Assembly (NCBI GenBank): GCA_015234045.1
Contig: JADFWU010000068.1
Location: 1-12,892 of the forward strand
DNA: 12,892 nucleotides
DNA from: Magnetococcales bacterium
GTDB lineage: Bacteria > Pseudomonadota > Magnetococcia > Magnetococcales > JADFWU01
Reading direction: 5' to 3'
Below, in pieces: positions 1 to 12,707 of the stretch (the first letter of the stretch is position 1; each line of letters begins with the position of its first letter). Under the pieces are notes generated by a model, which saw only the letters and a list, made by a program, of their open reading frames with translations, did no database searches and was not told the DNA's origin. Both the position numbers and the translations under genes were made by a program.

Positions 1-549
1 GCGTATGGTGATTGTGCCGGAACCGTCTTTATCAAAGTGGAGATCCTCGACATTGACGGCTACCACTTCACTTGATCGGGCCAGCATGTCACGGGCCATT
101 AACATCATGGCTACATCCCGGATATCGCGCTCGGAACTTAGGACGTTTTCGAGTATCCGAATTACATCAACGCTGGTTAATCCTCGGGCCTGTTTCTGTC
201 TGGTGCCTTTTGAGCGATTCATTCGTTTAATCGCTAACTTAACATCATTACTCTTGGTTGGATCTGGTAGGTCAGCCGCTCGGTGTAGGTGGGCGATTGA
301 GGCTATGTACCTTCTGACCGTGGCCGGTTTATACTCTTCGGCGCACTGGTCCACATATGCCCGGATATTCTCAGGTGTGGCCGGTAGGGATAGGACGCCC
401 TTTTGCTCACACCACTTGGTGAACTTCATGCTATCTGACTTGATGGCCCGTACCGTGTTTGGTGCAAATGCGTTCTCTGAGTCAATGGCGTACTTTTCCA
501 GCTTTGCTGCAATCTGATCTTCTGTCCGGGTAATAAGCGCTTTATTCAC
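1..549 (-). CDS. Tyrosine recombinase (XerC/D-like), C-terminal part cut off by the window edge
   Basis: The reading frame is open on the minus strand from a GTG at 549 to the left end of the window: 183 codons with no stop. A purine-rich GGGGGAG lies just upstream of the GTG and supports this start. Residues about 1-105 look like the SAM-like core-binding domain of tyrosine recombinases, with the pattern APNTVRAIKSD..FTKWCEQKG and later KPATVRRYIASIAHLH. After residue about 120 the catalytic domain begins; MLARSSEVVAVNVEDLHFD matches box I, including its catalytic arginine. The remaining catalytic residues and the tyrosine lie outside the window. It differs from the second integrase at 9841-10959. 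It could be a plasmid-type resolvase, the integrase of a neighbouring element, or part of this one. The family call is firm; its role is not. Confidence 0.85.
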   Translation of the reverse strand, partial: MNKALITRTEDQIAAKLEKYAIDSENAFAPNTVRAIKSDSMKFTKWCEQKGVLSLPATPENIRAYVDQCAEEYKPATVRRYIASIAHLHRAADLPDPTKSNDVKLAIKRMNRSKGTRQKQARGLTSVDVIRILENVLSSERDIRDVAMMLMARDMLARSSEVVAVNVEDLHFDKDGSGTITIR

Positions 550-600: not shown

Positions 601-985
601 TGCTTTTTGACACCATTTCAAGCCCATTTCGCTACCCATAACGCCACCCCCTTAAATCGGCCGCAACGCCTACGGCCTTGGGCGTTTTGTCGGTGATGCA
701 AAATAGGCTGCTTGAATCGTTTCGCGCCATCGATTTCGCAACAGCGCGTTATCGACTGGCCAAGAGTTGAGAATATCAGCCAGGAAAGAAAGAAGTGGGC
801 ACCTTCAGCGCTGGTGGTGATGGCTTCAATGGCATCCTGGTGACGGCCATCATGTGGAAGCCTTCATCCAGATCTATTGGCCGTATCGATGGGTATCGAC
901 TAAACAGCCATAAAAAGAAAGAAGCTTGGAAAAGAAAAAGTGATGAGCTTGTCATTTCTCATACGTAGGGGGGTTCTCACATGTT
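601..985. other. Intergenic stretch with no supported gene
   Basis: No open frame here has both a credible start and a ribosome binding site. A minus-strand frame from about 875 to 626 is open for roughly 80 codons but has no good start and no recognisable family. A short inverted repeat, ACGCC/GGCGT followed by TTTT, lies near 669-690 and could be a weak terminator. The right end (905-960) is purine rich. The stretch separates the leftward recombinase from the iteron cluster. Confidence 0.4.
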
Positions 986-1344
986 TTGTCCACACTATTA
1001 TATTATCTTATTGTTTTTAAAAGAAAGTAGTATAAAAAAGTGTGGACAGAAGGGTAAAAAGTGTGGACAGAACGGGTGGATTTGTGGACAAAACAGATGA
1101 GTTTGTGGACAGAACGACTATGATCTGTGGAAACTTTATCAGGCATAAAAAATTCTTTTCTGTCCACATTTTCAGACTTTTGTCCACAGCGTTAACGTCA
1201 TACTTATATCTATATAATCAACAGGATAAATCAGTTGTCAGCCCTTCGGTGTGGACAGAGTGAATATTTGAAATGTCCACAAATAAAACGCTATATAATC
1301 AAATTGATATGTTGGTTTTTTCCGATTTGTGGACAATGTGGACA
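986..1344. repeat. Iteron cluster of TGTGGACA octamers; candidate replication origin
   Basis: Exact TGTGGACA occurs on the plus strand at 1041, 1062, 1083, 1104, 1250, 1328 and 1337. Its complement TGTCCACA occurs at 987, 1161, 1181 and 1274. A degenerate copy, TGTGGAAA, is at 1126. The first four plus-strand copies are spaced exactly 21 bp apart and the fifth 22 bp, so they lie on one helical face. The 21 bp units share more than the octamer (often TGTGGACAGAACGG). AT-rich tracts lie between and beside the copies (995-1040, 1195-1235, 1283-1320). No exact copy was found elsewhere in the window. Such arrays are typical of iteron origins bound by a plasmid Rep or a satellite-phage primase-helicase. 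TTGTCCACA is also one base off a DnaA box. Origin function is inferred. Confidence 0.8.
1210..1302 (+). repeat. Pair of AT-rich 12-mers inside the iteron cluster
   Basis: CTATATAATCAA occurs at 1210-1221 and again at 1291-1302, 81 bp apart. Each copy is flanked by a TGTCCACA on its left (1181 and 1274) and a TGTGGACA on its right (1250 and 1328). The same three-part module is thus present twice. Repeated AT-rich 12- to 13-mers beside iterons are typical of DNA unwinding elements. The repeats are read directly; the unwinding role is inferred. Confidence 0.6.
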
Positions 1345-1450
1345 CATTTTTCACCACCCCCCTGAGTTTTTTTCTCTCAAGGGGTCAAAATCACCACCGC
1401 CTGACCTTCTTCTTTTTCAAAGCTGGCCCACTTCCAGGTGTCAACCATTG

Positions 1451-1557: not shown

Positions 1558-1935
1558 ATGATGCTCTCCTCAATCCCAGTTGAAGAACTCCCGGAATTGA
1601 TTCAAGTGATGGTTGGTGCGGTGGGTGCGACAGCTACGACCGCTTTGGTTCAAGGTCTTGGTGGGTCCACTGTCCGATTTCCAAAATGTGGGAAAGGGAA
1701 GACTTACGATGTTGTGGTGAAATTGATCGGCAAAGAGAAAGCCGAATCACTTCGCCATATTTTCAACAAGGAAGTAATCTATTTACCCTCATTGAAGACT
1801 TTCCGTGCCAAAGCCAGACAGCGAGAAATCATTCGTCGATACGATGATGGTGGTGTGACTGGGGAGGATTTAGCCGTTGAATTTGGTGTTTCTGTGCGTT
1901 GGGTATATGCGATTTTGAATCAGGAACGCATATAG
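1558..1935 (+). CDS. Mor-family transcription activator
   Basis: This 125-residue protein matches the Mor/C family of phage Mu middle and late transcription activators. The N-terminal part (residues about 8-45, LPELIQVM then GLGGSTVRFPK) corresponds to the dimerisation domain. IGKEKAESLRHIF and a second segment follow. The C-terminal part (about 88-121, REIIRRYDD, EDLAVEFGVSVRWVYAIL) is the helix-turn-helix. The length is close to Mor. GAGG at 1547-1550, 7 bp before the ATG, supports the start. Family members bind dyad sites as dimers and recruit RNA polymerase to promoters lacking a -35. It stands alone between the iteron cluster and a structured non-coding region ending in a terminator. Its target is not known; a dyad at 1451-1474 upstream of its own start is one candidate. 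Confidence 0.85.
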   Translation: MMLSSIPVEELPELIQVMVGAVGATATTALVQGLGGSTVRFPKCGKGKTYDVVVKLIGKEKAESLRHIFNKEVIYLPSLKTFRAKARQREIIRRYDDGGVTGEDLAVEFGVSVRWVYAILNQERI

Positions 1936-2137: not shown

Positions 2138-2395
2138 ATGGATGTGATATTCTGTTTCTACGGTGACTGGAACCGGGCGTGGCCCCTATGGTTTCAACTC
2201 ACTAGCGCCGATTCAGCCACGTGGATTAGGTCCCGATCTTCTTTTTCCCGGCTTCAGTTTTTCTCTTTTTTCAGTTGTGCTATCCTGAATTCACGGTGGA
2301 TGTGATCAGGCGTGGCCCTCATGATTGCATGCATTAGTCCGGTTCAGTCACGTGGACTCGGCCCCCTTTAAGCTCTTCTTGACTGCCTATTCAAG
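2131..2395 (+). repeat. Two imperfect ~133 bp tandem repeats, possibly structured RNAs
   Basis: Unit A (about 2131-2262) and unit B (about 2265-2395) align along their length. Each starts with a T-run. ACGGTG follows (2160 and 2293), then GGCGTGGCCC (2176 and 2309), then TTCAGYCACGTGGA ending at 2225 and 2356. The offset is 133 bp, falling to 131 bp after a 2 bp gap. In both, GCGTGGC can pair with G(C/T)CACGT about 35 bp downstream. In B the G-C pair becomes G-T, which would still pair in a plus-strand RNA but not in a minus-strand one. No protein is supported here. The end of B overlaps the 3' end of the repressor gene. Function unknown. Confidence 0.6.
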
Positions 2396-3049
2396 AATGC
2401 CTTGCAGTGTAAGTTCGTTCTTCTTAATTTGTTCCCGGCCTTCTCTACTTAGGAATTGTTCCCACTCATATGTTGTGCTGTTATTTTCATTCAAAGAAGT
2501 GGGAATCACCGGCTCAATATTGATAGCTCTAGAGGCAATAACAACTTCAGCCAATATAGAGAAACCTAAGCTGCGCTCATGAGACGAGATCTCATTGATC
2601 ATTGATTCTAAGTCTGTAGTCAGGCTTTCACCTTCTAAATCATGCTTTTTCAGAACACCAAGGAACACGTTAAGGATTCTGGTAATTTCAGGCACACCCA
2701 TTGAGACATAAGCTTTCCCACCTTTATCAAATCCCATACCGACTAATGTGCCTAAATTCAAAAGCTTAATAACTTCAGATTGCTCCTCAGAGATACCCTT
2801 TGATTCACCAAATAATAGCCAATCAGCGGTCACATCTTTTCCCAACGCTTTGACCATTTTGGCTAAAACTTCTGCTGAGGGAGAGAATTCGTCACGCTCA
2901 TACCTGCTAATCGTATCTCTCGCGATGCCTGATTTTTCTCCAAATTCAGCCTGATTTAGGCCAAGTCTTTTCCTTGCTGAACGTAGCCTAGAGCCAAAAT
3001 TCGACAAAGTCTCCGCATTTATTGTTGACATATTTGAATACCACGTCAT
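2387..3049 (-). CDS. CI-type XRE-family repressor without a peptidase domain
   Basis: The protein has 220 residues. Residues about 17-80 form a classic HTH_3 (XRE/CI) domain: FGSRLRSARKRLGLNQAEFG, SGIARDTISRYERDEFSPSAEVLAKMVKALG. The rest has no Ser-Lys LexA/S24 peptidase motif. RecA-stimulated self-cleavage is therefore unlikely, and release must come another way, for example by antirepressor binding. It is divergent from the Cro-position gene at 3110, and its start overlaps a candidate rightward promoter, the usual layout of a lysogeny switch. Two starts are possible, 3049 and 3031; neither has a good ribosome binding site, so the exact start is uncertain. Its role as element repressor is inferred from fold and position. 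Confidence 0.85.
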   Translation of the reverse strand: MTWYSNMSTINAETLSNFGSRLRSARKRLGLNQAEFGEKSGIARDTISRYERDEFSPSAEVLAKMVKALGKDVTADWLLFGESKGISEEQSEVIKLLNLGTLVGMGFDKGGKAYVSMGVPEITRILNVFLGVLKKHDLEGESLTTDLESMINEISSHERSLGFSILAEVVIASRAINIEPVIPTSLNENNSTTYEWEQFLSREGREQIKKNELTLQGILE

Positions 3050-3379: not shown

Positions 3380-3916
3380 ATGAACAGCAACGAACTATCC
3401 CCATTCTCATGGGGAGAAATCTCCCTGTCCCAAGTTATCAACCAAAGTGGTGTGCCACATGTGACTCGACGCGCTATCGGTGAGTGGCTGGGATACTCCG
3501 AACCTAAGCATGCAATCTCCAAAATTTTGAAGCGGAACCCGTACATTGAAAGCTATGCAGTGGTGGTCAACTTGACCACCACTGACGGCAAAAATTACGA
3601 CACTCGCGTCTATCATCCCATCGGTTTCATGCTCATCGTCATGGAGTCCGGCCAACCCAAAGCCAAAGAGTTCAAGGAAGCGGTTGCCAACTTCGTCTGG
3701 AGCTTTTCCCGTCCATCTCCGTTGAAACTCAAAGAGCGTCTGGATTTGCACAAGTTGAAGCGCGGATTTATCCGAGATCTGACCAAAGCCAAAGACGCCT
3801 ATGAACGGCAAGCACTGGGTAACAGCCTCCGTGAAATTTGCCAATTCCTTGGTGAAACCATGCCGGAAGTCTGTTTGCTCGGTAAGGATGCAGATCAGTA
3901 CCAGTTGGAGTTGTAA
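3380..3916 (+). CDS. BRO-N/antirepressor-like phage protein
   Basis: The protein has 178 residues; an AAAGAGG motif lies about 6 bp before the ATG. The N-terminal half (about 25-110) looks like a BRO-N or P22-antirepressor-type domain. TRRAIGEWLGYSEPKHAISKIL is the first part; a hydrophobic strand region and VYHPIGFMLIVMESGQPKAKEFKEAVANFVW follow. The C-terminal part (about 115-178) is charged, helical and without recognised motifs. Proteins with this domain in phages and satellites are often antirepressors. Its position, two genes from a repressor with no peptidase domain, suits that role. The fold call is moderately sure; antirepression is inferred. Confidence 0.6.
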   Translation: MNSNELSPFSWGEISLSQVINQSGVPHVTRRAIGEWLGYSEPKHAISKILKRNPYIESYAVVVNLTTTDGKNYDTRVYHPIGFMLIVMESGQPKAKEFKEAVANFVWSFSRPSPLKLKERLDLHKLKRGFIRDLTKAKDAYERQALGNSLREICQFLGETMPEVCLLGKDADQYQLEL

Positions 3917-4334: not shown

Positions 4335-6920
4335 ATGAATGCGGATCAGTTGAGAGACTGCGTAGACCTGCACGACTTGGCGTCACGGCTTGGAATCAAT
4401 CGAGCCAAAAGCGGAAATTATCATGCACCTTGGCGTGATGATGGTGATGCCAGCATGTCTATTTTTGCTGGTGGCAAGAAGTGGAAGGATCACGGTTCTG
4501 ATCTCAGAGGTTCATGTATAGATCTCGTCATGAGTGTTCGGGGAATTACAATGCCCGAATCCATGCGGTTTTTACATGACCTGTACGGTTTTTCTCTGGA
4601 TAAGCCAGAAGTAAAACCAGCCAATCAAAACAGTGAAAGCAAGGCGGAATATGTGTGGCGAAAATCACGTACACATCCGAATTTGAATGAGGCTGAACAA
4701 TACCTCATCAATGCTCGAAAGTTGCCGGAAAAATTGGTGCGACAGTGGCGCGGCAAGGCGTTCGGTTTCTCTGATTGGAAGCCAAAAAATGGCAACCAGG
4801 ATGGTTATGGATCTACGGTGGTATTTCCGGTTAAGAATGCAACCGGTCAACTGGTGGCCGTCAACCAACGCTATCTTGATCCAGACCATGAACCAAAAAT
4901 GCGTGTGATCGGTGAGGCATCCGGTGGGTTCTTCGCATCCTGGCCGGGTGTTCTCAATTCACCGGTGATTTGGTTGGTAGAATCCCCCATTGATGCACTC
5001 ACGCTTTCCGCTTGTGGCTGTCCAGCGCTGGCGTTTCTGTCTGCAAGCATGGTGAAATCTTTTCCTCTTTCATGGCTTCAAAATGACCAACGCTTGATGA
5101 TACTCGGTGACTCCGATGGTGCTGGACAGCATGCAGCATTCGCCCTCTATCATCGGGTAATCAGTTGTGGTATTGCGGCTCAAATCGTTGACTGGCCTGA
5201 AGATATCAAAGATCCAAACGATGCCTTGCAACAGGGTAAATCTCTGGATGAAATCAAAGCATTTTCCAGAAAACCGGTGAAGGAATTGTTTCCTGCTGGT
5301 GCGCCTTTCTTGCCTGAATCAGAGTTTAAACGAACGAATAGATTTATCTGTGAATTAGACGCCTGTTATTTCTGGAAGGCTTCACAGAGTCCTGACGGTG
5401 AGGACTTTATTGAAGAACCGATTGCAGGTTTTCGCGTTTTTCGTATAGATCCGATCACCGTTCACAGTCCGGTTGCTGCTCTTGGTGGGATTCAAAATAC
5501 CTACAGCGCGTACCGTTCGTTGGTGATCTATCGGCGTGCGGATTCATCCGCCATGCAACGCAGGATCATTGATCTTGAGGACATCGGCAAGCCGACGACG
5601 TGGCAAAAAATGGGACACCTGCATGCACCACGCATGCTGTCTTTGATGCTGCAAACACTTGCCAGGGATCAGGAATACCACCATGAAACCGTGGATGTGA
5701 TCGGTTTAGTTCATGTCGGGAAACAGGTTCAAATCAACGATGCTGCAACCGCGTTTCTGGATGATGAACGGTGCGTTTATCACAGTCTTCGTTTTCCTAC
5801 AGCACCGATTAATGAAGCAGGCGCGATCCTTCAAAGCATGCGGGAGATGTTTCAACGGGATCTTGGTTTGATCCTAATGGCGTGGCACTTGGGGAGCATG
5901 ATGAAAGTCTTCCTTGGGTTCTGGCCACACTTATCGATATCTGCACCGGCAGGAGGCGGAAAAACCACGGTGGCGGGACATATGGAAAAACTGACAGGTT
6001 CCAAATGTGTTGGACAAAGTGAGTTAGCCACAAGTTATCGCCGAATGAAACTGCTTTCAAACCATCTTTATCCTGTCTTTTTAGATGAGGTGTCGAGAGC
6101 ATCCCGCCAAGATCTGAACGCCTTTGTGGACTTTCTGAACACAAGTTACCGCCATGAGCTACGCCACCATAATCAAAAGAACCTTTTTTTGGTGGCTGCA
6201 CCGGTCTGCATGATCGGACAGGACAACCCTACAGAAGATGCAGCACTCTCAACCAAGGTGATCCAGTTCGATCTGGATAAAGCTAAAGGCAAAATGTGGG
6301 ACCCTCACGGGCCTTTTCCTGTCAGGGAGTGGGCAGAGTGGCTATCTCACCGTTGGAACCGACAGAAGGCCATGGAACACCTACAACAGCATAAAGACAT
6401 CATGGTGCAGGCTGTACCTGAAGATACTGACCCGGCCACCATTGATCGGTTCCTAACCAACTATGCAGCACTACGACTTGCCGTTGATGAGCTATCGGCC
6501 TTCAGTGGCATCAACGTTGAGGACACCTTCAAGCGTCTGAACACCATCCTTCGTAACCACCTTGCTGAAACCGACACAGTACGCCGTGAATCAGTCGCTA
6601 TCCTGGATCGTTTAGCACGGGAAATTGTTATTACCAAAGAACAGGACCACCCACCATACAGGGTGAAAGACAGCCTTCTGCACATGCCAGCAAAAGCCAT
6701 CCTCGACTTCCTTCATAAACGTGGTCATCAGTTCCCTGTCACTTCTGCACGTCGTTTTACTAACCATCTTTTGAATGATGGATTCTTGGTTGAGAAAAGG
6801 AAGTCATTACGCATACATGGCATGGCCTATAAGTGTGTTGTTCTTTCACTGGATAACATGTCCAAAGCTGGCATTGACTGGCCTGTCAAAGAAGAGGAAA
6901 TGAACAATGGCCACCGGTGA
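4335..6920 (+). CDS. Primase-helicase (DnaG-like primase fused to AAA+ helicase)
   Basis: The protein has 861 residues from the ATG at 4335. CGGAG ends 6 bp before that ATG; an in-frame ATG at 4269 lacks a ribosome binding site. Residues 1-80 resemble a CHC2 primase N-terminus (YHAPWRDDGDASMSI, WKDHGSD) but lack the zinc-binding cysteines. A Toprim domain follows: WLVESPIDAL (E216), ILGDSDGAG (D259, D261) and KDPND (about 292-296). The second half is a helicase: Walker A SAPAGGGKTT (536-545) and Walker B VFLDE (581-585), with IGQDNP as a possible sensor about 50 residues later. The C-terminal 150 residues include a likely winged-helix region (VTSARRFTNHLLNDGFLVEKRK) that could bind DNA. Fused primase-helicases drive replication of P4-like satellites and plasmids. 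The iteron cluster at 986-1344 is a natural candidate for its origin; that link is inferred. Confidence 0.85.
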   Translation: MNADQLRDCVDLHDLASRLGINRAKSGNYHAPWRDDGDASMSIFAGGKKWKDHGSDLRGSCIDLVMSVRGITMPESMRFLHDLYGFSLDKPEVKPANQNSESKAEYVWRKSRTHPNLNEAEQYLINARKLPEKLVRQWRGKAFGFSDWKPKNGNQDGYGSTVVFPVKNATGQLVAVNQRYLDPDHEPKMRVIGEASGGFFASWPGVLNSPVIWLVESPIDALTLSACGCPALAFLSASMVKSFPLSWLQNDQRLMILGDSDGAGQHAAFALYHRVISCGIAAQIVDWPEDIKDPNDALQQGKSLDEIKAFSRKPVKELFPAGAPFLPESEFKRTNRFICELDACYFWKASQSPDGEDFIEEPIAGFRVFRIDPITVHSPVAALGGIQNTYSAYRSLVIYRRADSSAMQRRIIDLEDIGKPTTWQKMGHLHAPRMLSLMLQTLARDQEYHHETVDVIGLVHVGKQVQINDAATAFLDDERCVYHSLRFPTAPINEAGAILQSMREMFQRDLGLILMAWHLGSMMKVFLGFWPHLSISAPAGGGKTTVAGHMEKLTGSKCVGQSELATSYRRMKLLSNHLYPVFLDEVSRASRQDLNAFVDFLNTSYRHELRHHNQKNLFLVAAPVCMIGQDNPTEDAALSTKVIQFDLDKAKGKMWDPHGPFPVREWAEWLSHRWNRQKAMEHLQQHKDIMVQAVPEDTDPATIDRFLTNYAALRLAVDELSAFSGINVEDTFKRLNTILRNHLAETDTVRRESVAILDRLAREIVITKEQDHPPYRVKDSLLHMPAKAILDFLHKRGHQFPVTSARRFTNHLLNDGFLVEKRKSLRIHGMAYKCVVLSLDNMSKAGIDWPVKEEEMNNGHR

Positions 6921-7128
6921 ATCATGGCGTGACCGCACCATACTTCGGGCCAACTGGCACCAGCACCAATTGAACATGCCACGTCAACTGGCAATGGCCG
7001 TTGCCTCAATAGAAACCATGGACCGCCCGGAGTTCATCCCCGAACAGATGTGGCAATTCTTCGTGGATGACTGCACCAACTTTGCGTCCTGCTGGTCCAG
7101 GAAGGCCATGGAAAAGGAGTGTAAATAG
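6907..7128 (+). CDS. Small hypothetical protein overlapping the primase-helicase end
   Basis: The 73-residue frame overlaps the 3' end of the primase-helicase by 14 bp in another frame and ends 2 bp before the next gene. Such tight packing indicates one transcript with coupled translation. AGAGGA at 6893-6898 gives a reasonable ribosome binding site. The sequence has a basic N-terminus and FIPEQMWQFFVDDCTNFASCW near the end. The family is not recognised. Confidence 0.55.
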   Translation: MATGESWRDRTILRANWHQHQLNMPRQLAMAVASIETMDRPEFIPEQMWQFFVDDCTNFASCWSRKAMEKECK

Positions 7129-7130
7129 CC

Positions 7131-7622
7131 ATGGCTCGGAAGTGTTCAGTATGCGTCCACAAGCAACGCAAGAAAATTGACAAAGCTTTACTGGATGACG
7201 TGACGTATAGCGAATTAACGCGCCGATATGGGCTTTCAAAAGACGCCTTGCGCCGACACAAGAACGCCCATCTCACCGCGTCTCTGGTCAAAGCCAAAGA
7301 GGTCAAAGAGGTTGCCCATGGGGATGATCTTCTATCCCGTCTTCAAGGCTTGAGAGATCAGGCTCAACGCATCGCAAACAAGGCAGAGAAGAAGAACAAC
7401 TTCAATGCTGCTCTATCTGGTATCCGTGAGCTTGTCCGCATCGTTGAACTATTGGCCAAGCTGAAAGGAGATCTGAAGGAAGGGCCAACCTTTAACACCC
7501 TGATAGTTTCAACTGAGTGGCTCACAGTTCAAGCCTTGGTGGTCCAGGCATTGGAACCCTACCCGGAAGCTAAAAAGGCCGTTATGAACGCCCTGAGCGG
7601 AGTTTGTAATGCTCGCGGTTAA
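7131..7622 (+). CDS. Zinc-finger/HTH protein, probable terminase small subunit
   Basis: The protein has 163 residues, and AGGAG at 7115-7119 precedes the start. The N-terminus has C5 and C8 (KCSVCVHKQR), then a helix-turn-helix stretch (YSELTRRYGLSKDALRRHKNAHL) with H43 and H47. This spacing suggests a Cys2-His2-type zinc site holding a DNA-binding fold. A coiled-coil-like basic segment (about 65-120) follows. It lies directly before the terminase ATPase gene and overlaps it by 14 bp. Small HTH proteins in this position are typically terminase small subunits, which choose the DNA to be packaged and load the large subunit. That role is inferred from position and fold; it could also be a regulator. 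Confidence 0.6.
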   Translation: MARKCSVCVHKQRKKIDKALLDDVTYSELTRRYGLSKDALRRHKNAHLTASLVKAKEVKEVAHGDDLLSRLQGLRDQAQRIANKAEKKNNFNAALSGIRELVRIVELLAKLKGDLKEGPTFNTLIVSTEWLTVQALVVQALEPYPEAKKAVMNALSGVCNARG

Positions 7623-8370
7623 TGACATGGTCAATGAGCTACGGTATTCCTTGGATTCGGTGACCTTCGCCCGTGAGCGGTTGGGGTTTGAGCCGGATCC
7701 CTGGCAACAGAAGGCCATGCGCTCACCGGCAAAGCGGATACTTTTGAACTGTAGTCGTCAGTCAGGCAAGAGCACCAGTACGGCTATCATAGCCCTACAC
7801 ACGGCCATCTATCGTCCGCGCTCCCTATGCTTGATGGTGTCACCCTCAGAACGGCAATCAAAAGAGCTTTTCAAGAAGGTAAAAGGATTCTTTGCTGAGT
7901 TGGACCACCAACCCAAGTTGGATGAAGACAGCAAGCTAGGCTTTGCCCTGGCCAATGGATCACGGGTTCTCTCTCTTCCCAGTTCACCAGATACCATCCG
8001 AGGCTTCAGTGCTGTGGATCTTCTCATTGAGGATGAAGCCGCATTTTGCCAAGACAGCCTGTACCGATCCATACGCCCAATGTTGGCCGTATCAAATGGC
8101 AAAATGATCCTCATGAGCACCCCACGCGGTAAGGTCGGCCACTTCTATGAAGAGTGGGTGAATGGTGGGTCTGAGTGGGCAAAGATCAAGGTAACCGCCC
8201 ATGAGTGCCCACGGATTACCCCTGAGTTTCTGGAGCAGGAAATGAATTCATTGGGATCTCTCTGGTTCAACCAAGAATACATGGGCGTGTTTGCCGAACG
8301 TGAGGACAGTGTTTTTGACCATGACACGGTGATGTCGGCCATTAATCCAGAGATAAAGCCGCTGTTTTGA
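7609..8370 (+). CDS. Terminase large subunit, ATPase part
   Basis: The 253-residue protein carries only the ATPase half of a phage terminase large subunit. The translocating ATPase pumps DNA into a prohead. DPWQQKAM (30-37) is the adenine-binding region. CSRQSGKST (48-56) is the Walker A. LLIEDEA holds Walker B (D142, E143). LMSTPRG (168-174) is the coupling motif. The protein stops with TGA at 8368-8370, just where the nuclease domain of a normal TerL would begin. GGAG at 7599-7602 supports the start, and the 14 bp overlap with the upstream gene implies coupling. The nuclease domain is encoded by the next gene in the same frame after eight codons. See the split-terminase finding. Confidence 0.9.
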   Translation: MLAVNDMVNELRYSLDSVTFARERLGFEPDPWQQKAMRSPAKRILLNCSRQSGKSTSTAIIALHTAIYRPRSLCLMVSPSERQSKELFKKVKGFFAELDHQPKLDEDSKLGFALANGSRVLSLPSSPDTIRGFSAVDLLIEDEAAFCQDSLYRSIRPMLAVSNGKMILMSTPRGKVGHFYEEWVNGGSEWAKIKVTAHECPRITPEFLEQEMNSLGSLWFNQEYMGVFAEREDSVFDHDTVMSAINPEIKPLF

Positions 8371-8394
8371 AGTGGCATAACAACGGAGGAATCA

Positions 8395-9081
8395 ATGAAC
8401 AACACCTATCTCTTGGGATTGGATTTAGGCCAAGCAGGAGACTATACCGGCCTAACTATTTTTGAGTGTCTCAACAACAAAAGGCCACCGGTTTACCATC
8501 TACGCCATGTTGAGCGGCTCAAGCTTGGTTTGTCCTATCCAAAACAAGTGGATTTGGTAGCTGAACGACTGGCCAGAATACCCGGAATATCCACGTTGGT
8601 TCTGGATGCTACAGGCGTTGGACGGCCAGTAGTAGACATGATCCGACAACGCCGACTTCTGACTACAATCATTGCTGTCACCATCACCGGTGGTAATACG
8701 GTGAATGAGACCGATAAGGACACCTTTACCGTACCAAAACGGGATCTTGTATCTACGCTTCAAGTACTGTTCCAAAACGCCCGATTGAAGGTTGCACAAG
8801 GGTTGCCACAAGGCGAATTACTCATTGAAGAATTGTTGAATTTCAAAGTTAAAATCAACGTAAACAACCACGATTCATACGAAGCATGGCGAGACAAGGA
8901 CCATGATGATCTGGTTCTATCCGCAGCCCTTGCCTTGTGGTACGCAGAGCGGAAACCACCTGTTGAGTTCAGCTTCATACCAGTACCAAAAAGCACCCTG
9001 TTTGGAGAAAGTGCCCGATATGACCCGGATGATGATGAAAACGAGTCCAGCACGTGGGGTGGACGTGGTGGTGGCTACTGA
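8395..9081 (+). CDS. Terminase large subunit, RNase H-like nuclease part
   Basis: The 228-residue protein resembles the C-terminal nuclease domain of terminase large subunits, which cuts concatemeric DNA at packaging. The acidic residues fit an RNase H/RuvC-type fold: D10 in LLGLDLGQAGDYTG, D71 in LVLDATGVG, and D171/D172 in KDHDDLVLSAALALW. It has its own strong GGAGGA (8385-8390) 4 bp before the ATG. It lies 24 bp after the ATPase gene and in the same frame, so the two were probably once one ORF. The tail (about 200-228) is acidic, then glycine rich. A RuvC-like resolvase is a less likely alternative, given the neighbour. Confidence 0.8.
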   Translation: MNNTYLLGLDLGQAGDYTGLTIFECLNNKRPPVYHLRHVERLKLGLSYPKQVDLVAERLARIPGISTLVLDATGVGRPVVDMIRQRRLLTTIIAVTITGGNTVNETDKDTFTVPKRDLVSTLQVLFQNARLKVAQGLPQGELLIEELLNFKVKINVNNHDSYEAWRDKDHDDLVLSAALALWYAERKPPVEFSFIPVPKSTLFGESARYDPDDDENESSTWGGRGGGY

Positions 9082-9156
9082 TAGATGATAAACCAAACAA
9101 ACCTTATATAACAACTATTTAACCACATTTTAAACGACACACAGAGAGGAAGAACA

Positions 9157-9462
9157 ATGACCACTACCATGATGAGTGAACCAACCCTTAAAACTGTTCG
9201 CCACACCTTGGAGATCATCCACCCTGATGCTACCCCGGATGATCCATTTATTGCCGCCAACTATGAGACTACAACCCCGATTCCAATTCAGGTTGGTTCT
9301 ATCCTTAACCCGATTTCATGGCCTCACCTTCGGCCTAACATGACCACCGATGATCTGTTTGAAGTAACCCGGATTGAAGAAATGCTTTGGGAAAGTGAAG
9401 GCGTGGTGAAGCACAAAGCCACTGCCTATACCAAGTCGATCCCGGCCAACGATCACGACTAA
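9157..9462 (+). CDS. Hypothetical protein between terminase and excisionase
   Basis: The 101-residue frame has GAGAGGA (9144-9150) 6 bp before the ATG. It is rich in Thr, Pro and Asp. No signal peptide, membrane segment or known motif is visible. A 75 bp AT-rich gap precedes it, which may hold a promoter, though no convincing hexamers are seen. The family is not recognised. Confidence 0.6.
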   Translation: MTTTMMSEPTLKTVRHTLEIIHPDATPDDPFIAANYETTTPIPIQVGSILNPISWPHLRPNMTTDDLFEVTRIEEMLWESEGVVKHKATAYTKSIPANDHD

Positions 9463-9503
9463 CCAGCGAACATTCATCAAAGTTATGGAGAAAAGGCTTT
9501 TTG

Positions 9504-9568
9504 CTCCCGATCTGACCGCTCGATTTTCAGCGCCGGCCAGATCGGGAGAGTCTGATTCCCAGAATCAG
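9504..9568 (+). promoter_or_regulatory. Twin inverted repeats upstream of the excisionase gene
   Basis: CTCCCGATCTG (9504-9514) pairs perfectly with CAGATCGGGAG (9538-9548) around 23 bases. Just after it, CTGATTC (9552-9558) pairs perfectly with GAATCAG (9562-9568) around three bases. Neither is followed by a T-run. They lie in the non-coding gap before the excisionase-integrase operon, so they may be a leader RNA, operator sites, or recombination protein sites. Confidence 0.5.
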
Positions 9569-9619
9569 GGCGAAAACGGCCTTCCTCATTCACTGAAAAA
9601 ATGGGTAGGAGCAAACATC

Positions 9620-9841
9620 ATGCGAATGCTGACAACAGAAGAAGCGTTTGTATATGTCGGTTGCCGGTCTGTCAATCAGTTCAGGAGCGAAGTGAAACAG
9701 GGTGTATGGCCTGAACCTTTGGCAAAGCATAGCAGGCCACAACGCTGGTCACGTGAACAGCTTGACGCCACAATCTCAGGACGGCCACCCGCTCAACTGG
9801 ATGAAGTTGCCCTGATTGATAGAGCTTTGGGAATTGTCTGA
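9620..9841 (+). CDS. AlpA-type excisionase/regulator
   Basis: The product is 73 residues from the ATG at 9620, chosen because AGGAG (9607-9611) lies 8 bp upstream. A longer frame from 9485 would run through the twin inverted repeats and has no such site. The sequence is a MerR/AlpA-like winged helix: MLTTEEAFVYVGCRSVNQFRSEV, then GVWPEPLAKHSRPQRWSREQLDATISG. AlpA proteins regulate integrase genes or act as recombination directionality factors. The stop overlaps the integrase start by one base (TGATG), so the two are translationally coupled. That makes the excisionase role likely. Confidence 0.75.
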   Translation: MRMLTTEEAFVYVGCRSVNQFRSEVKQGVWPEPLAKHSRPQRWSREQLDATISGRPPAQLDEVALIDRALGIV

Positions 9842-10959
9842 TGAAGTATCTGAAAGAGGTGAAAGGTCGGTACTACTTCGCACCTTCTCCAGCTATGCGG
9901 AAGGCTGGATTTTCAGGTGTATCTTTCGGAGTGGATAAACAGGCTGCTGAAAAGAGAGTGTCCGCCCTAGCTGAAGAGTGGGAACAAATCCAGATCCAAA
10001 GCTATGATGAGCCGTTCCAGCCAAAGAGAGGGGATTTTACATGGTTGATAGCCCAGTTTCGAAGAGACCCGACATGGTATAGGTCCAAGGCTATCAGGAC
10101 TCAGGAGGAGATGGACTATGCCTTTCAGATTATTGAAAGCAGTCTAGGCAAGTTCGGTGTACGGGCATTTGTGCGTCGGCATGGGAGAGCGTTCTATAAC
10201 AACCTGAGACAGGAAGGCGCATCCGCCCACAAGGCCAAAAAGGTGATGAAATGGTTTCGGCGTCTTATGCGCTTTGCTCAAGAGGTCGGTGTCAGGGATG
10301 ACAACCCATTGGCTGAAATGAGGATAGAGAACCCTAAAGGCCGGGATCAAGTGTGGAGTAGGGAAGAGGTTGAAGCGGTCATAAATGCTGCACTGAATGG
10401 TGGAAAGGCCAGTAGTGGAAATGAAATTCCACCGCGCCCATCTATCGCCCTGGCCGTCATGATTGCCTATGACACATCCTTACCCCAACAAGACATATTG
10501 AGCCTGACATGGAATCAGTTTGATGGAGAAGGTCTCACGGTCGAATTAATAAAAAAGCGCGGCCAGCATGAAGTGTGGGTGCCTCTATCTAAACCCACTT
10601 TAGACTTGATGGAACAGCTAAAGCGAACCTCTACACATATCATTGTTTCAGAGGCGAATAATCAGCCATACATTGATCAGAACCAGAAAGACACCCGTAG
10701 CCGCTCACTCATATTTTCAAGGATGTTTCGACGGTTTAGGAAGCGTGCAGGCATTGAGAGACAATTAACATTTCATGACCTGAGACGTACCGCATTAACT
10801 GAGCTTGGAAACGCAGGTGCAACCAATGCAGAGATTGTTTCATTCTCTGGTCATAGCCTGAATAGCCGGGTACTTGATGTGTATGTGAAGCCTGATCAGC
10901 GAGCCGCTAGAAGAGCGTCGCAAAAGCGTCGCAACGTCGCAAAGGATTCTTTTAAGTGA
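9841..10959 (+). CDS. Tyrosine integrase at tRNA-Glu
   Basis: The protein has 372 residues. Residues 1-70 are an arm-type N-terminal domain and about 70-180 the core-binding domain. The catalytic domain carries H312-D-L-R315, H338 (FSGHS), and the nucleophile Y348 (DVYVKP). K238/K239 is in the beta-hairpin lysine region. Box I reads YDTSLPQQDILSLTW (210-224). Where most family members have the first catalytic arginine, P215 or a neighbour stands. The gene ends 9 bp from the CCA end of tRNA-Glu, strongly suggesting that the tRNA 3' end is the attachment site. It is coupled to the AlpA-like gene by a TGATG overlap. Integrase identity is sure; full activity is uncertain because of box I. Confidence 0.9.
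   Translation: MKYLKEVKGRYYFAPSPAMRKAGFSGVSFGVDKQAAEKRVSALAEEWEQIQIQSYDEPFQPKRGDFTWLIAQFRRDPTWYRSKAIRTQEEMDYAFQIIESSLGKFGVRAFVRRHGRAFYNNLRQEGASAHKAKKVMKWFRRLMRFAQEVGVRDDNPLAEMRIENPKGRDQVWSREEVEAVINAALNGGKASSGNEIPPRPSIALAVMIAYDTSLPQQDILSLTWNQFDGEGLTVELIKKRGQHEVWVPLSKPTLDLMEQLKRTSTHIIVSEANNQPYIDQNQKDTRSRSLIFSRMFRRFRKRAGIERQLTFHDLRRTALTELGNAGATNAEIVSFSGHSLNSRVLDVYVKPDQRAARRASQKRRNVAKDSFK
10916..10942 (+). repeat. Three CGTCGCAA repeats at the 3' end of the integrase gene
   Basis: CGTCGCAA occurs at 10916, 10927 and 10935, within the last codons of the integrase and about 30 bp from the tRNA end. They may be arm-type or accessory recombination sites, or simply codons for an Arg/Lys-rich tail. 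Low certainty. Confidence 0.35.
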
Positions 10960-10968
10960 TTGATTTTA

Positions 10969-11000
10969 TGGCGTCCCCAAGGGGATTCGAACCCCTGTTG
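10969..11000. other. Probable right attachment site (tRNA 3' end)
   Basis: The integrase gene stops 9 bp from the tRNA 3' end, and the tRNA is intact, as expected when an element integrates into a tRNA and restores it. The exact crossover and core length cannot be set, because the matching left site is not in the window. Confidence 0.45.
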
Positions 11001-11044
11001 CCGGCGTGAGAGGCCGGAGTCCTAGGCCTCTAGACGATGGGGAC
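10969..11044 (-). tRNA. tRNA-Glu (anticodon CTC)
   Basis: A full cloverleaf is read on the minus strand. Acceptor GTCCCCA (from 11044) pairs with TGGGGAC. Next come a D arm with AGAGGCCTAGG, anticodon stem CCGGC/GCCGG with loop CTCTCAC (anticodon CTC), and T arm GGGG-TTCGAAT-CCCC. The discriminator is G and CCA is encoded (10971-10969). The body matches gammaproteobacterial tRNA-Glu, which usually has TTC; CTC is the less common GAG-only isoacceptor. The adjoining integrase implies that the 3' half is the attachment site. No second copy of the 3' end was found left of the integrase in this window. Confidence 0.95.
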
Positions 11045-11195: not shown

Positions 11196-11582
11196 TTATC
11201 CGATAGCAATTGGAATCATAGTGCGGCTTTTACCAGCTTGTTTTAGCTCTTCCAGATACTCTTGCCAAAGTTGTTGCTGGTTTTTTCCCAGATCGAACAG
11301 GGTATCCCAGGAGTAAACGCCGGTGCCGTGGCTGTCGTCGAAGTTGATTTTTAAAGCATAATGTCCGATCGGTGTCATTTTCTCGATCTGGACAGAGCGT
11401 TTACCATAGATCAACTTGGCTTGGCTGGGGTGGTGGCCCATGCATTCAGCACATGGACAGAATACCCGCAGAAATTCCATGCTGTATTCAAACGTGTCGC
11501 CGTTATTGAAGGAAATTACGACTGTACGCTCTTCTGTTTTCTGACGGATCTCAGTGGGGATCCATTTACTTCCGTACTCCAT
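11196..11582 (-). CDS. DUF971 (GBBH-like N-terminal domain) protein
   Basis: The 128-residue protein matches the DUF971 family, the small domain also found at the N-terminus of gamma-butyrobetaine hydroxylases. The cysteine motif FCPCAEC (C42, C44, C47), with the nearby GHH, fits a metal-binding site. IGHYALKINFDDSHGTGVYSWDTL is the conserved C-terminal core, and the length is normal for stand-alone members. AGGAG lies 8 bp before the ATG. It follows nagZ after only 15 bp in the same direction, so the two probably share a transcript. Stand-alone members have no settled function. Confidence 0.85.
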   Translation of the reverse strand: MEYGSKWIPTEIRQKTEERTVVISFNNGDTFEYSMEFLRVFCPCAECMGHHPSQAKLIYGKRSVQIEKMTPIGHYALKINFDDSHGTGVYSWDTLFDLGKNQQQLWQEYLEELKQAGKSRTMIPIAIG

Positions 11583-11597
11583 GCCCAGGGCTCCTGA

Positions 11598-12707
11598 TCA
11601 AGATGGATGGGTTGTTGGTTCGGTGGGATCAACACTGTAACCCGCTTGGGCGATGATTTCGAGTTGATTTCTTTTGAGCTGGTAATCTTCATCGTCAAGT
11701 AGGGTGTGTAACGGTATGGACTGCTGTTTAAGAAGCGGATAAAAAGCCCTTTGAATTCGATGACGGGTGGTTTCAATACAAGGCGTTTGTTCGCGGGCTT
11801 GGGCGATGCCTTCCAGGGTCTGTTGTGCATCTTCCAGGCGGCCTGTGCAACAGAGCACCATATCGCATCCAGCCAGCATGGCGCGTTTGGTTCGCTCGGT
11901 CATTGTGCCGGTCAATGCGCCCATTTCTAAAGCGTCTGAGACGATCAGGCCATTATATTGCCAAGTGCGTCTAAGAAGTTGCTCAAGCGTTGCTGCTGAC
12001 CATGTGGCGGGCAGGGACTTGTCTAATCCAGTAGCGATGAGGTGAGCCGTCATCAGGGCAGGTAGCCGGTTAAGAAGGGCTTTGAAGGGCACCAATTCAT
12101 GCTTTTCCAATTGATCACGGGACTGTGTGACCACAGGAAGCGCTTTATGGGAGTCCGCCCGCGCAGCGCCATGGCCAGGAAAATGTTTTCCAACCGCTAA
12201 TACACCGCGATTTTCGAACCCATCCAACCATGCGCCAGCCAAGCGGATCACCTGCTGTGGTGAACTGCCAAAAGCACGTTCACCGATGACTGGGTCTGCT
12301 TCCGGTTCGTGTATGTCCAATACTGGCGCACAGTTAACATGGATACCGATAGAGGCCAATTCACGCGCGTTTAATTCACCAAATATCCGTGCCAGTCTCA
12401 GTGCATGATCAGGGTCTGCCTGTTCCAAATGGGCAAGATGTAACGCGCTGGGATAACGGGTCAGAGGATCACGAATACGTTGAACACGTCCACCTTCCTG
12501 ATCCAGCCAGATTGCGGGCGGATAGTAGTTTATCTTGGATATGTTTTCCAATAGTGACTGGAGTTGATCCAGATTTGCTATATTCCGGCTGAAAAGAATG
12601 ATGCCTGCCGGTTGATTTTCTTTGATGAAGGTTATCTCATCCGGTGTAAGATCCGGGCCTGATATGCCCATGACCAGATGAATGCCGGGATCAATATGAC
12701 TTCTCAT
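11598..12707 (-). CDS. nagZ: Beta-N-acetylhexosaminidase NagZ
   Basis: The 369-residue protein belongs to glycoside hydrolase family 3. NagZ is cytoplasmic and removes N-acetylglucosamine from anhydro-muropeptides in peptidoglycan recycling. In organisms with inducible AmpC it produces the inducer signal. The substrate-binding motif KHFPGHG (174-180) is present, with D185-S-H187 supplying the catalytic histidine and VSDALEM the nucleophile D258. IILFSRNI and WLDQEGGRVQRI are also family hallmarks. The C-terminal tail is somewhat longer than in the E. coli enzyme. The ATG at 12707 has only a weak AGGA upstream. No signal peptide is seen, as expected. The DUF971 gene follows closely. It is backbone, not part of the element. 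Confidence 0.95.
   Translation of the reverse strand: MRSHIDPGIHLVMGISGPDLTPDEITFIKENQPAGIILFSRNIANLDQLQSLLENISKINYYPPAIWLDQEGGRVQRIRDPLTRYPSALHLAHLEQADPDHALRLARIFGELNARELASIGIHVNCAPVLDIHEPEADPVIGERAFGSSPQQVIRLAGAWLDGFENRGVLAVGKHFPGHGAARADSHKALPVVTQSRDQLEKHELVPFKALLNRLPALMTAHLIATGLDKSLPATWSAATLEQLLRRTWQYNGLIVSDALEMGALTGTMTERTKRAMLAGCDMVLCCTGRLEDAQQTLEGIAQAREQTPCIETTRHRIQRAFYPLLKQQSIPLHTLLDDEDYQLKRNQLEIIAQAGYSVDPTEPTTHPS

Follow-up and report, generated by a model that had tools for sequence, protein, structure and literature searches.

The window analyzed here is a whole contig of 12,892 nucleotides from a Magnetococcales bacterium, in which a dense array of one octamer lies between two divergently transcribed genes: rec, encoding a tyrosine recombinase, and the gene of a Mor-family late activator (Table 1). 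The octamer, TGTGGACA, occurs in 11 exact copies at 987-1344, seven on the forward and four on the reverse strand, together with one degenerate copy, TGTGGAAA. Direct copies start at 1041, 1062, 1083 and 1104, a pitch of exactly 21 bp, and the degenerate copy follows 22 bp on. These counts bear out the first-pass annotation, which had reported 11 exact octamers and one degenerate copy on both strands within 360 bp (359 bp in our recount), with four copies 21 bp apart and a fifth at 22 bp; the fifth is the degenerate one. It was also held that chance would give essentially no such cluster, and this was confirmed with order-1 Markov sequences of the same composition and 400 bp in length, in which the commonest 8-mer occurs three (occasionally four) times, compared with 11 in the array. 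Two further statements, that exact copies exist nowhere else in the window and that the setting is AT-rich and non-coding, hold as well: a search of the whole window found no exact TGTGGACA outside the array, the GC content of the region is 0.32-0.38 against about 0.5 in the surroundings, and no credible gene overlaps it. The paired-octamer pattern, with 11-15 bp between copies, is unique to the array within the 3.65 Mb genome. Another repeat, CTATATAATCAA, has two copies, at 1210 and 1291, the latter inside the right-hand AT-rich spacer, and the C/G runs that border the array also border those of three related elements (L024, L026 and L023).

Table 1. Features of the window, with the genes of the element and the parts of the octamer array.
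Feature	Position	Strand	Remarks
Tyrosine recombinase rec	1..549	-	N-terminal 183 aa, cut by contig end
GGGGGG run	968..973	+	left border of array
Iteron array, proposed replication origin	986..1344	both	12 sites in 359 bp
Iteron 1, TGTGGACA	987..994	-	
AT-rich spacer	995..1040		about 78% AT, candidate melting site
Iteron 2	1041..1048	+	opens run of four at 21-bp pitch
Iteron 3	1062..1069	+	
Iteron 4	1083..1090	+	
Iteron 5	1104..1111	+	
Degenerate iteron, TGTGGAAA	1126..1133	+	22 bp on
Iteron 6	1161..1168	-	inverted pair with iteron 7
Iteron 7	1181..1188	-	
Iteron 8	1250..1257	+	
Iteron 9	1274..1281	-	
AT-rich spacer	1282..1327		about 74-76% AT, second candidate melting site
Iteron 10	1328..1335	+	outer close pair (9 bp) with iteron 11
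Iteron 11	1337..1344	+	
CCCCCC run	1357..1362	+	right border of array
Mor-family late activator	1558..1935	+	
CI-like HTH repressor	2387..3049	-	
Small phage protein	3110..3340	+	phrog_15281, no known function
BRO-N / antirepressor-like	3380..3916	+	
TOPRIM primase-helicase, proposed initiator	4335..6920	+	861 aa; Toprim_3 4e-11, phrog_5629 2e-92, DnaG fold of N part
C-terminal winged-helix domain, proposed iteron reader	6585..6884	+	residues 751-850; predicted fold, co-variation
Putative small terminase (HTH-like)	7131..7622	+	kept in all Magnetococcales elements; no Pfam match
Terminase large subunit, ATPase half	7609..8370	+	
Terminase large subunit, nuclease half	8395..9081	+	own gene
Integrase	9841..10959	+	
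tRNA-Glu, right attachment site	10969..11044	-	

The element in the window is probably about 12.6 kb long, and the 3' part of its tRNA-Glu is repeated on contig C88. The ends of its relatives are tRNA repeats, in tRNA-Val (G036, 10.4 kb), tRNA-Phe (G044, 12.2 kb) and tRNA-Ser (G039, 17.2 kb). No capsid or tail genes were recognised in these elements. The large terminase subunit is split into an ATPase gene and a nuclease gene in the window (7609-9081) and in L023-L027, with the two halves about 670 bp apart in L027. Judged from its sequence, an element with tRNA ends, a split terminase and no recognised capsid or tail genes has the anatomy of a phage satellite. The C-terminal half of rec is found in two more partial, stop-containing copies (G000:C77 11309-11806 and G000:C106 97912-98409), 96% identical to positions 1-112 of the window, and the contig may break inside rec because of these further copies. 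The primase-helicase, described in the first-pass annotation as a protein of 861 residues, has this length when read from the ATG at 4335, but an upstream TTG that would give 883 aa is also a possible start. Its gene lies about 3 kb from the array, which is found on its 5' side and does not adjoin it.

Close homologues of the primase-helicase (44-56% identity) are present in six elements of the order, the window's included, the relatives coming from Magnetococcales MAGs. All six carry a both-strand array of short repeats, and the word differs in each: TGTGGACA in the window, TGGACGG in L026, GTCAGGRAA in L023, AGGGTCA in L024, AGGGGGC in L025 and AGGGTGG in L027. A search for clusters of the same octamer near primase-helicase homologues, proposed at the outset as a check, yielded arrays, each with its own word. 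It had also been considered that homologous elements might lack the array; the reverse was found, with arrays in all six close elements and in most of the distant relatives. The layout is shared: about four direct copies follow one another at 21-bp pitch, then come a gap of some 31-37 bp and two inverted copies 20-21 bp apart, and in most elements close pairs at 8-9 bp stand on the outside. L025 departs from this with 11 bp between some of its direct copies and within its inverted pair. Spacings are near-identical in the window and L026, with 52/21/21/21-22 at the left and the inverted pair at 20-21 bp; the L027 array is cut by the contig end and its layout is less distinct. When nine arrays were pooled, 47 of the 51 same-strand neighbour gaps measured 8-12, 19-22 or 31-33 bp, while 5000 random placements gave 15 such gaps on average and never more than 26; the copies are helically phased. 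Some of the relatives have peculiarities of their own. The ends of the L023 contig (G024:C428, 14266 bp) overlap by exactly 127 bp and it is therefore probably a circular form, which additionally encodes a RepA_C initiator and a HigB/HigA-like pair. In the G039 element (L026, about 11580-11671) the primase-helicase frame shifts near the end of the ATPase part, as a broken copy or an assembly error.

The protein family extends well beyond the order. A set of 57 full-length homologues at about 25-30% identity was collected from IMG/VR, and an array was called where the count of an exact 7-mer exceeded an order-2 Markov null. A clear array was found for 27 of them; in 24 of these 27 it starts 93-1138 bp 3' of the gene, and most of these arrays cover about 360 bp, as in the window. 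When one mismatch was allowed, 18 of 40 formerly negative 3' regions (29 from IMG/VR and 11 from named phages and genomes) also passed, whereas none of the 26 controls, taken from the 5' side of the gene, did so. Because a few of these 18 are simple GC-rich or coding repeats, the number of the 57 homologues with an array at one mismatch is put at about 37-40. Among named Burkholderia phages, Carl1, KL3, Musica and Mana have arrays with 21/32/20/12-13 bp spacings. In KS5 the count stays within the null, the arrays of FLC5 and FLC10 are doubtful, no clear array is seen in KS14 and AP3, and none was found in G327, G287 and G007; KS14 has replication-initiation and partition genes of its own. A single-protein search of the genome contigs gave no match. 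The terms 'origin of replication' and 'iteron' are absent from the text of the KL3/KS5/KS14 genome paper (PMC3091744).

Co-variation of the word with the protein was analyzed with a partial Mantel test, which is open to inflation by shared ancestry and in which the other regions of the same protein served as control. Motif similarity correlates with the C-terminal 100 residues with a partial r of 0.55 across 31 elements (0 of 400 permutations), and of 0.64 in the 26 elements outside Magnetococcales, while the other regions show no significant correlation. In 50-residue windows the correlation peaks at 761-810, with a weaker secondary peak at 241-290. When plain identities are compared domain by domain within the six Magnetococcales proteins only, no clear signal emerges, and the larger set is needed. 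Residues follow the words as well: elements of GTGGA type have E-K/R in the wing (18/18), those of CGCGC type have D-T/A/I (3/3), and the GTGGGAC-type elements L125 and L153/L156/L173 share K-T-G-R before helix 3, and D-K. Outside these residues the two lineages, L125 and L153/L156/L173, are not closely related in the protein, and L125 has the GTGGGAC word and residues though its remaining protein is nearest to other classes. Partial exceptions to the pattern are L154 and L158. The nearest neighbour belongs to the same word class in 22 of 24 cases by the C-terminal domain and in 21 of 24 by the rest, which is weaker evidence.

Structure prediction points to the same domain. The model of the N-terminal half has the fold of a DnaG primase (2au3, E 7e-10), and the C-terminal domain modelled alone gives a winged helix with a pLDDT of 87. 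Among known structures it most resembles the C-terminal part of SaPIbov1 Rep (8tch 437-561; Z 8.3, rmsd 3.0, 102 residues aligned), with a Z that barely exceeds what small winged helices commonly score; the match is to a replication initiator, ranks first and covers most of the domain. Further matches are TcpK bound to oriT DNA (Z about 8) and SCCmec Cch (Z 5.4). A Foldseek search with this domain gave no match below E 0.001 and placed SaPIbov1 Rep seventh (E 0.02), compared with first in the second structural comparison. In the full-length model the ATPase part is of low quality, so that its helicase fold is putative. In L027 a separate ORF (5364-6194) carries two extra copies of the C-terminal winged-helix domain, which fits a free-standing DNA-binding module; this ORF may compete for the origin or control its copy number.

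We propose that the satellite very probably starts its replication at the array, and that the reader is the winged helix at the C terminus of the element's TOPRIM primase-helicase. An iteron origin served by this protein had been suggested by the first-pass annotation, and the suggestion gains support from the arrays of the relatives, the way the word varies with the C-terminal domain, and the SaPIbov1 Rep-like fold. On the other side, the array sits next to rec, about 3 kb 5' of the gene, where most phage relatives have it directly 3', and some homologues have no array.

The position of the array, immediately upstream of rec in the window, L023, L025 and L026, raises the question of whether it could be a set of accessory or arm sites for this neighbouring recombinase, used in integration, resolution or inversion. 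We consider this very improbable. Homologues of rec without this primase-helicase (L067-L072 and L074-L076) have no such array, and rec was rejected as its partner on this ground; array-bearing phages contain no rec or terminase homologue (tblastn, E 1e-4); and integration goes through the integrase at the opposite end, at tRNA genes. Elsewhere in the order, rec homologues are accompanied by an array only where a replicase is also present. L066 and L073 keep this setting of rec and terminase but encode other replicases, and a different array lies directly 3' of that replicase; upstream of rec, L066 has none. Since replicase and array are swapped together in these two elements, and rec occurs elsewhere without an array, the array follows the replicase, and the primase-helicase is the only tested window protein common to all array-bearing elements. 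In these related satellites, L066 (11046-14135) and L073 (1-969), the arrays are on both strands, with TTGTCCAA at about 9-bp pitch and GTTCCTAA.

Slightly less credible still is a packaging (pac/cos) site for the small terminase. This protein is kept across the Magnetococcales elements and lies near the other array of L066 and L073, but the array-bearing Burkholderia P2-like phages have P2-type terminases and only the primase in common. Moreover, the element whose word is nearest to that of the window, L026, ranks among the most distant in its terminases (48%/53%/43%), and L066, with closer ones (61%/72%), is without a window-type array. The terminase was disfavoured as partner by these distances, which contradict the word similarity; the latter follows the C-terminal domain of the primase. 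A regulatory or partition site, with operators for the repressor or Mor, a centromere or host DnaA boxes, deserves the same small weight as a packaging site. The array lies in the interval between rec and Mor, TGTGGACAA is one base off a DnaA box, and autoregulation is frequent among initiators. Against this, the array is present in G036, a complete element of 10.4 kb in which tblastn finds no CI or Mor homologue, and the co-variation is with the primase-helicase. Host DnaA alone, an alternative raised in the first-pass annotation, is unlikely, and DnaA was disfavoured as reader, since the window contains no TTWTNCACA box and the words are completely different among hosts of one order.

The origin reading brings together computed results, namely the array, its conservation with the protein family, the phasing, the word/C-terminal co-variation and the fold, and a mechanism can be suggested on it. 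The satellite, of about 12.6 kb and integrated in the tRNA-Glu gene of its host, would be induced to replicate by a helper phage. Its initiator would be the 861-aa protein, in which a DnaG/TOPRIM primase at the N terminus is followed by an ATPase/helicase in the middle and the winged helix at the C terminus. Several protomers may bind the octamers through the winged helix; with copies 10, 21 or 32 bp apart, they would all be on the same side of the DNA. Two helicase rings could then assemble on the oppositely oriented octamer sets, the adjacent AT-rich DNA would melt, and the primase-helicase would unwind and prime both strands. In the window the proposed origin would have shifted to a place beside rec, some 3 kb upstream of the gene.

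The window's own word was also looked for elsewhere, and six matches came up when IMG/VR was searched for three copies of TGTGGACA spaced at 21 bp. Of these, L182 and L183 were rejected as related arrays, being coding repeats of seven codons, and so was L184, which resembles a coding repeat (all-direct, three copies). L186, which resembles a DnaA-type region, was also rejected; it has 17 TGTGGACA among CCTGTGGAAA-like words over 5 kb (5776-10867) of a 97-kb contig. The remaining two, L181 and L185, represent another phage with its own TGTGGACA array, with ten copies in two inverted sets around about 265 bp of AT-rich DNA in L181 (320-726) and one set in the available stretch of L185 (2306-2375). 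This is apparently a convergent origin using the same octamer.

The results offer a candidate origin and a testable reader domain for a primase-helicase family of dozens of tailed phages and of satellites in magnetotactic bacteria, the latter being a compact Magnetococcales family with its own split terminase and no recognised capsid genes. With about thirty naturally occurring combinations of an origin word and its reader domain, the specificity between origin and initiator can be tested directly, and this specificity may determine which phages and satellites coexist in one cell. Tentatively, and with a little more doubt than belief, we suggest a widespread phage and satellite replicon family in which the helical geometry is fixed, the iteron word is repeatedly re-specified, and a readable code lies in helix 3 and the wing. 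If true, replication compatibility groups could be predicted from sequence (wing E-K/R for GTGGA, D-T/A/I for CGCGC, and K-T-G-R with D-K for GTGGGAC).

Parts of this arrangement are found in known replicons. In the P4 satellite, the alpha protein fuses primase and helicase in one initiator, which acts with ori1 and crr through short octameric iterons on both strands. The fused initiator and the short octamers on both strands are alike here, but the word differs, the primase-helicase matches only Toprim_3, Toprim_2 and weakly DUF7146 with no D5_N, P4-alpha or Primase_Cterm Pfam match, and there is no second iteron locus (crr) in the genome, where paired octamers occur at the array only. The Burkholderia P2-like phages KL3, KS5, Musica, Mana and Carl1 have the same primase-helicase family (27-28% identity) and the array 3' of the gene at 20-21/32/10-13 bp spacing; they differ in being complete tailed phages with a CGTGGC-type word. 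A Rep_3 or RepA-type initiator has no Pfam match among the ten window ORFs scanned, RepA_C being found only in the circular relative L023, and a DnaA-dependent origin is not indicated by any TTWTNCACA box in the window. SCCmec elements encode Cch/Cch2, AAA+ helicases that bind short direct repeats through their C-terminal domain (PMC7581432). The structural match of the C-terminal domain is the likeness, whereas SCCmec has few iterons, a separate primase-polymerase (PMC7581432) and is a different element type. Closest in logic is the Rep-ori system of SaPI/PICI, with an element-coded helicase initiator, a C-terminal dsDNA-binding domain and many short iterons (PMC7581432, PMC6092414). Shared with it are the element's own helicase initiator, the predicted SaPIbov1 Rep-like C-terminal fold, multiple short iterons and, in most phage relatives (24 of the 27 with arrays), an array directly 3' of the gene. 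Unlike SaPI/PICI, in which the SaPIbov1 and SaPI5 primases are placed in the AEP family (PMC7581432), a DnaG/TOPRIM primase is here fused to the helicase in one protein, the window array is not 3' of the gene but about 3 kb 5' of it, and the octamers are asymmetric and stand in several mixed-orientation groups. As to the SaPI/PICI pattern of two iteron sets around one AT-rich region, the window has several groups with AT-rich spacers at 995-1040 and 1282-1327, an arrangement that can be read either way. The working logic is thus already known from SaPI/PICI and P4 origins; the initiator is of a new type, and its architecture, the family-wide geometry and the position of the Magnetococcales array away from the 3' side of the gene differ.
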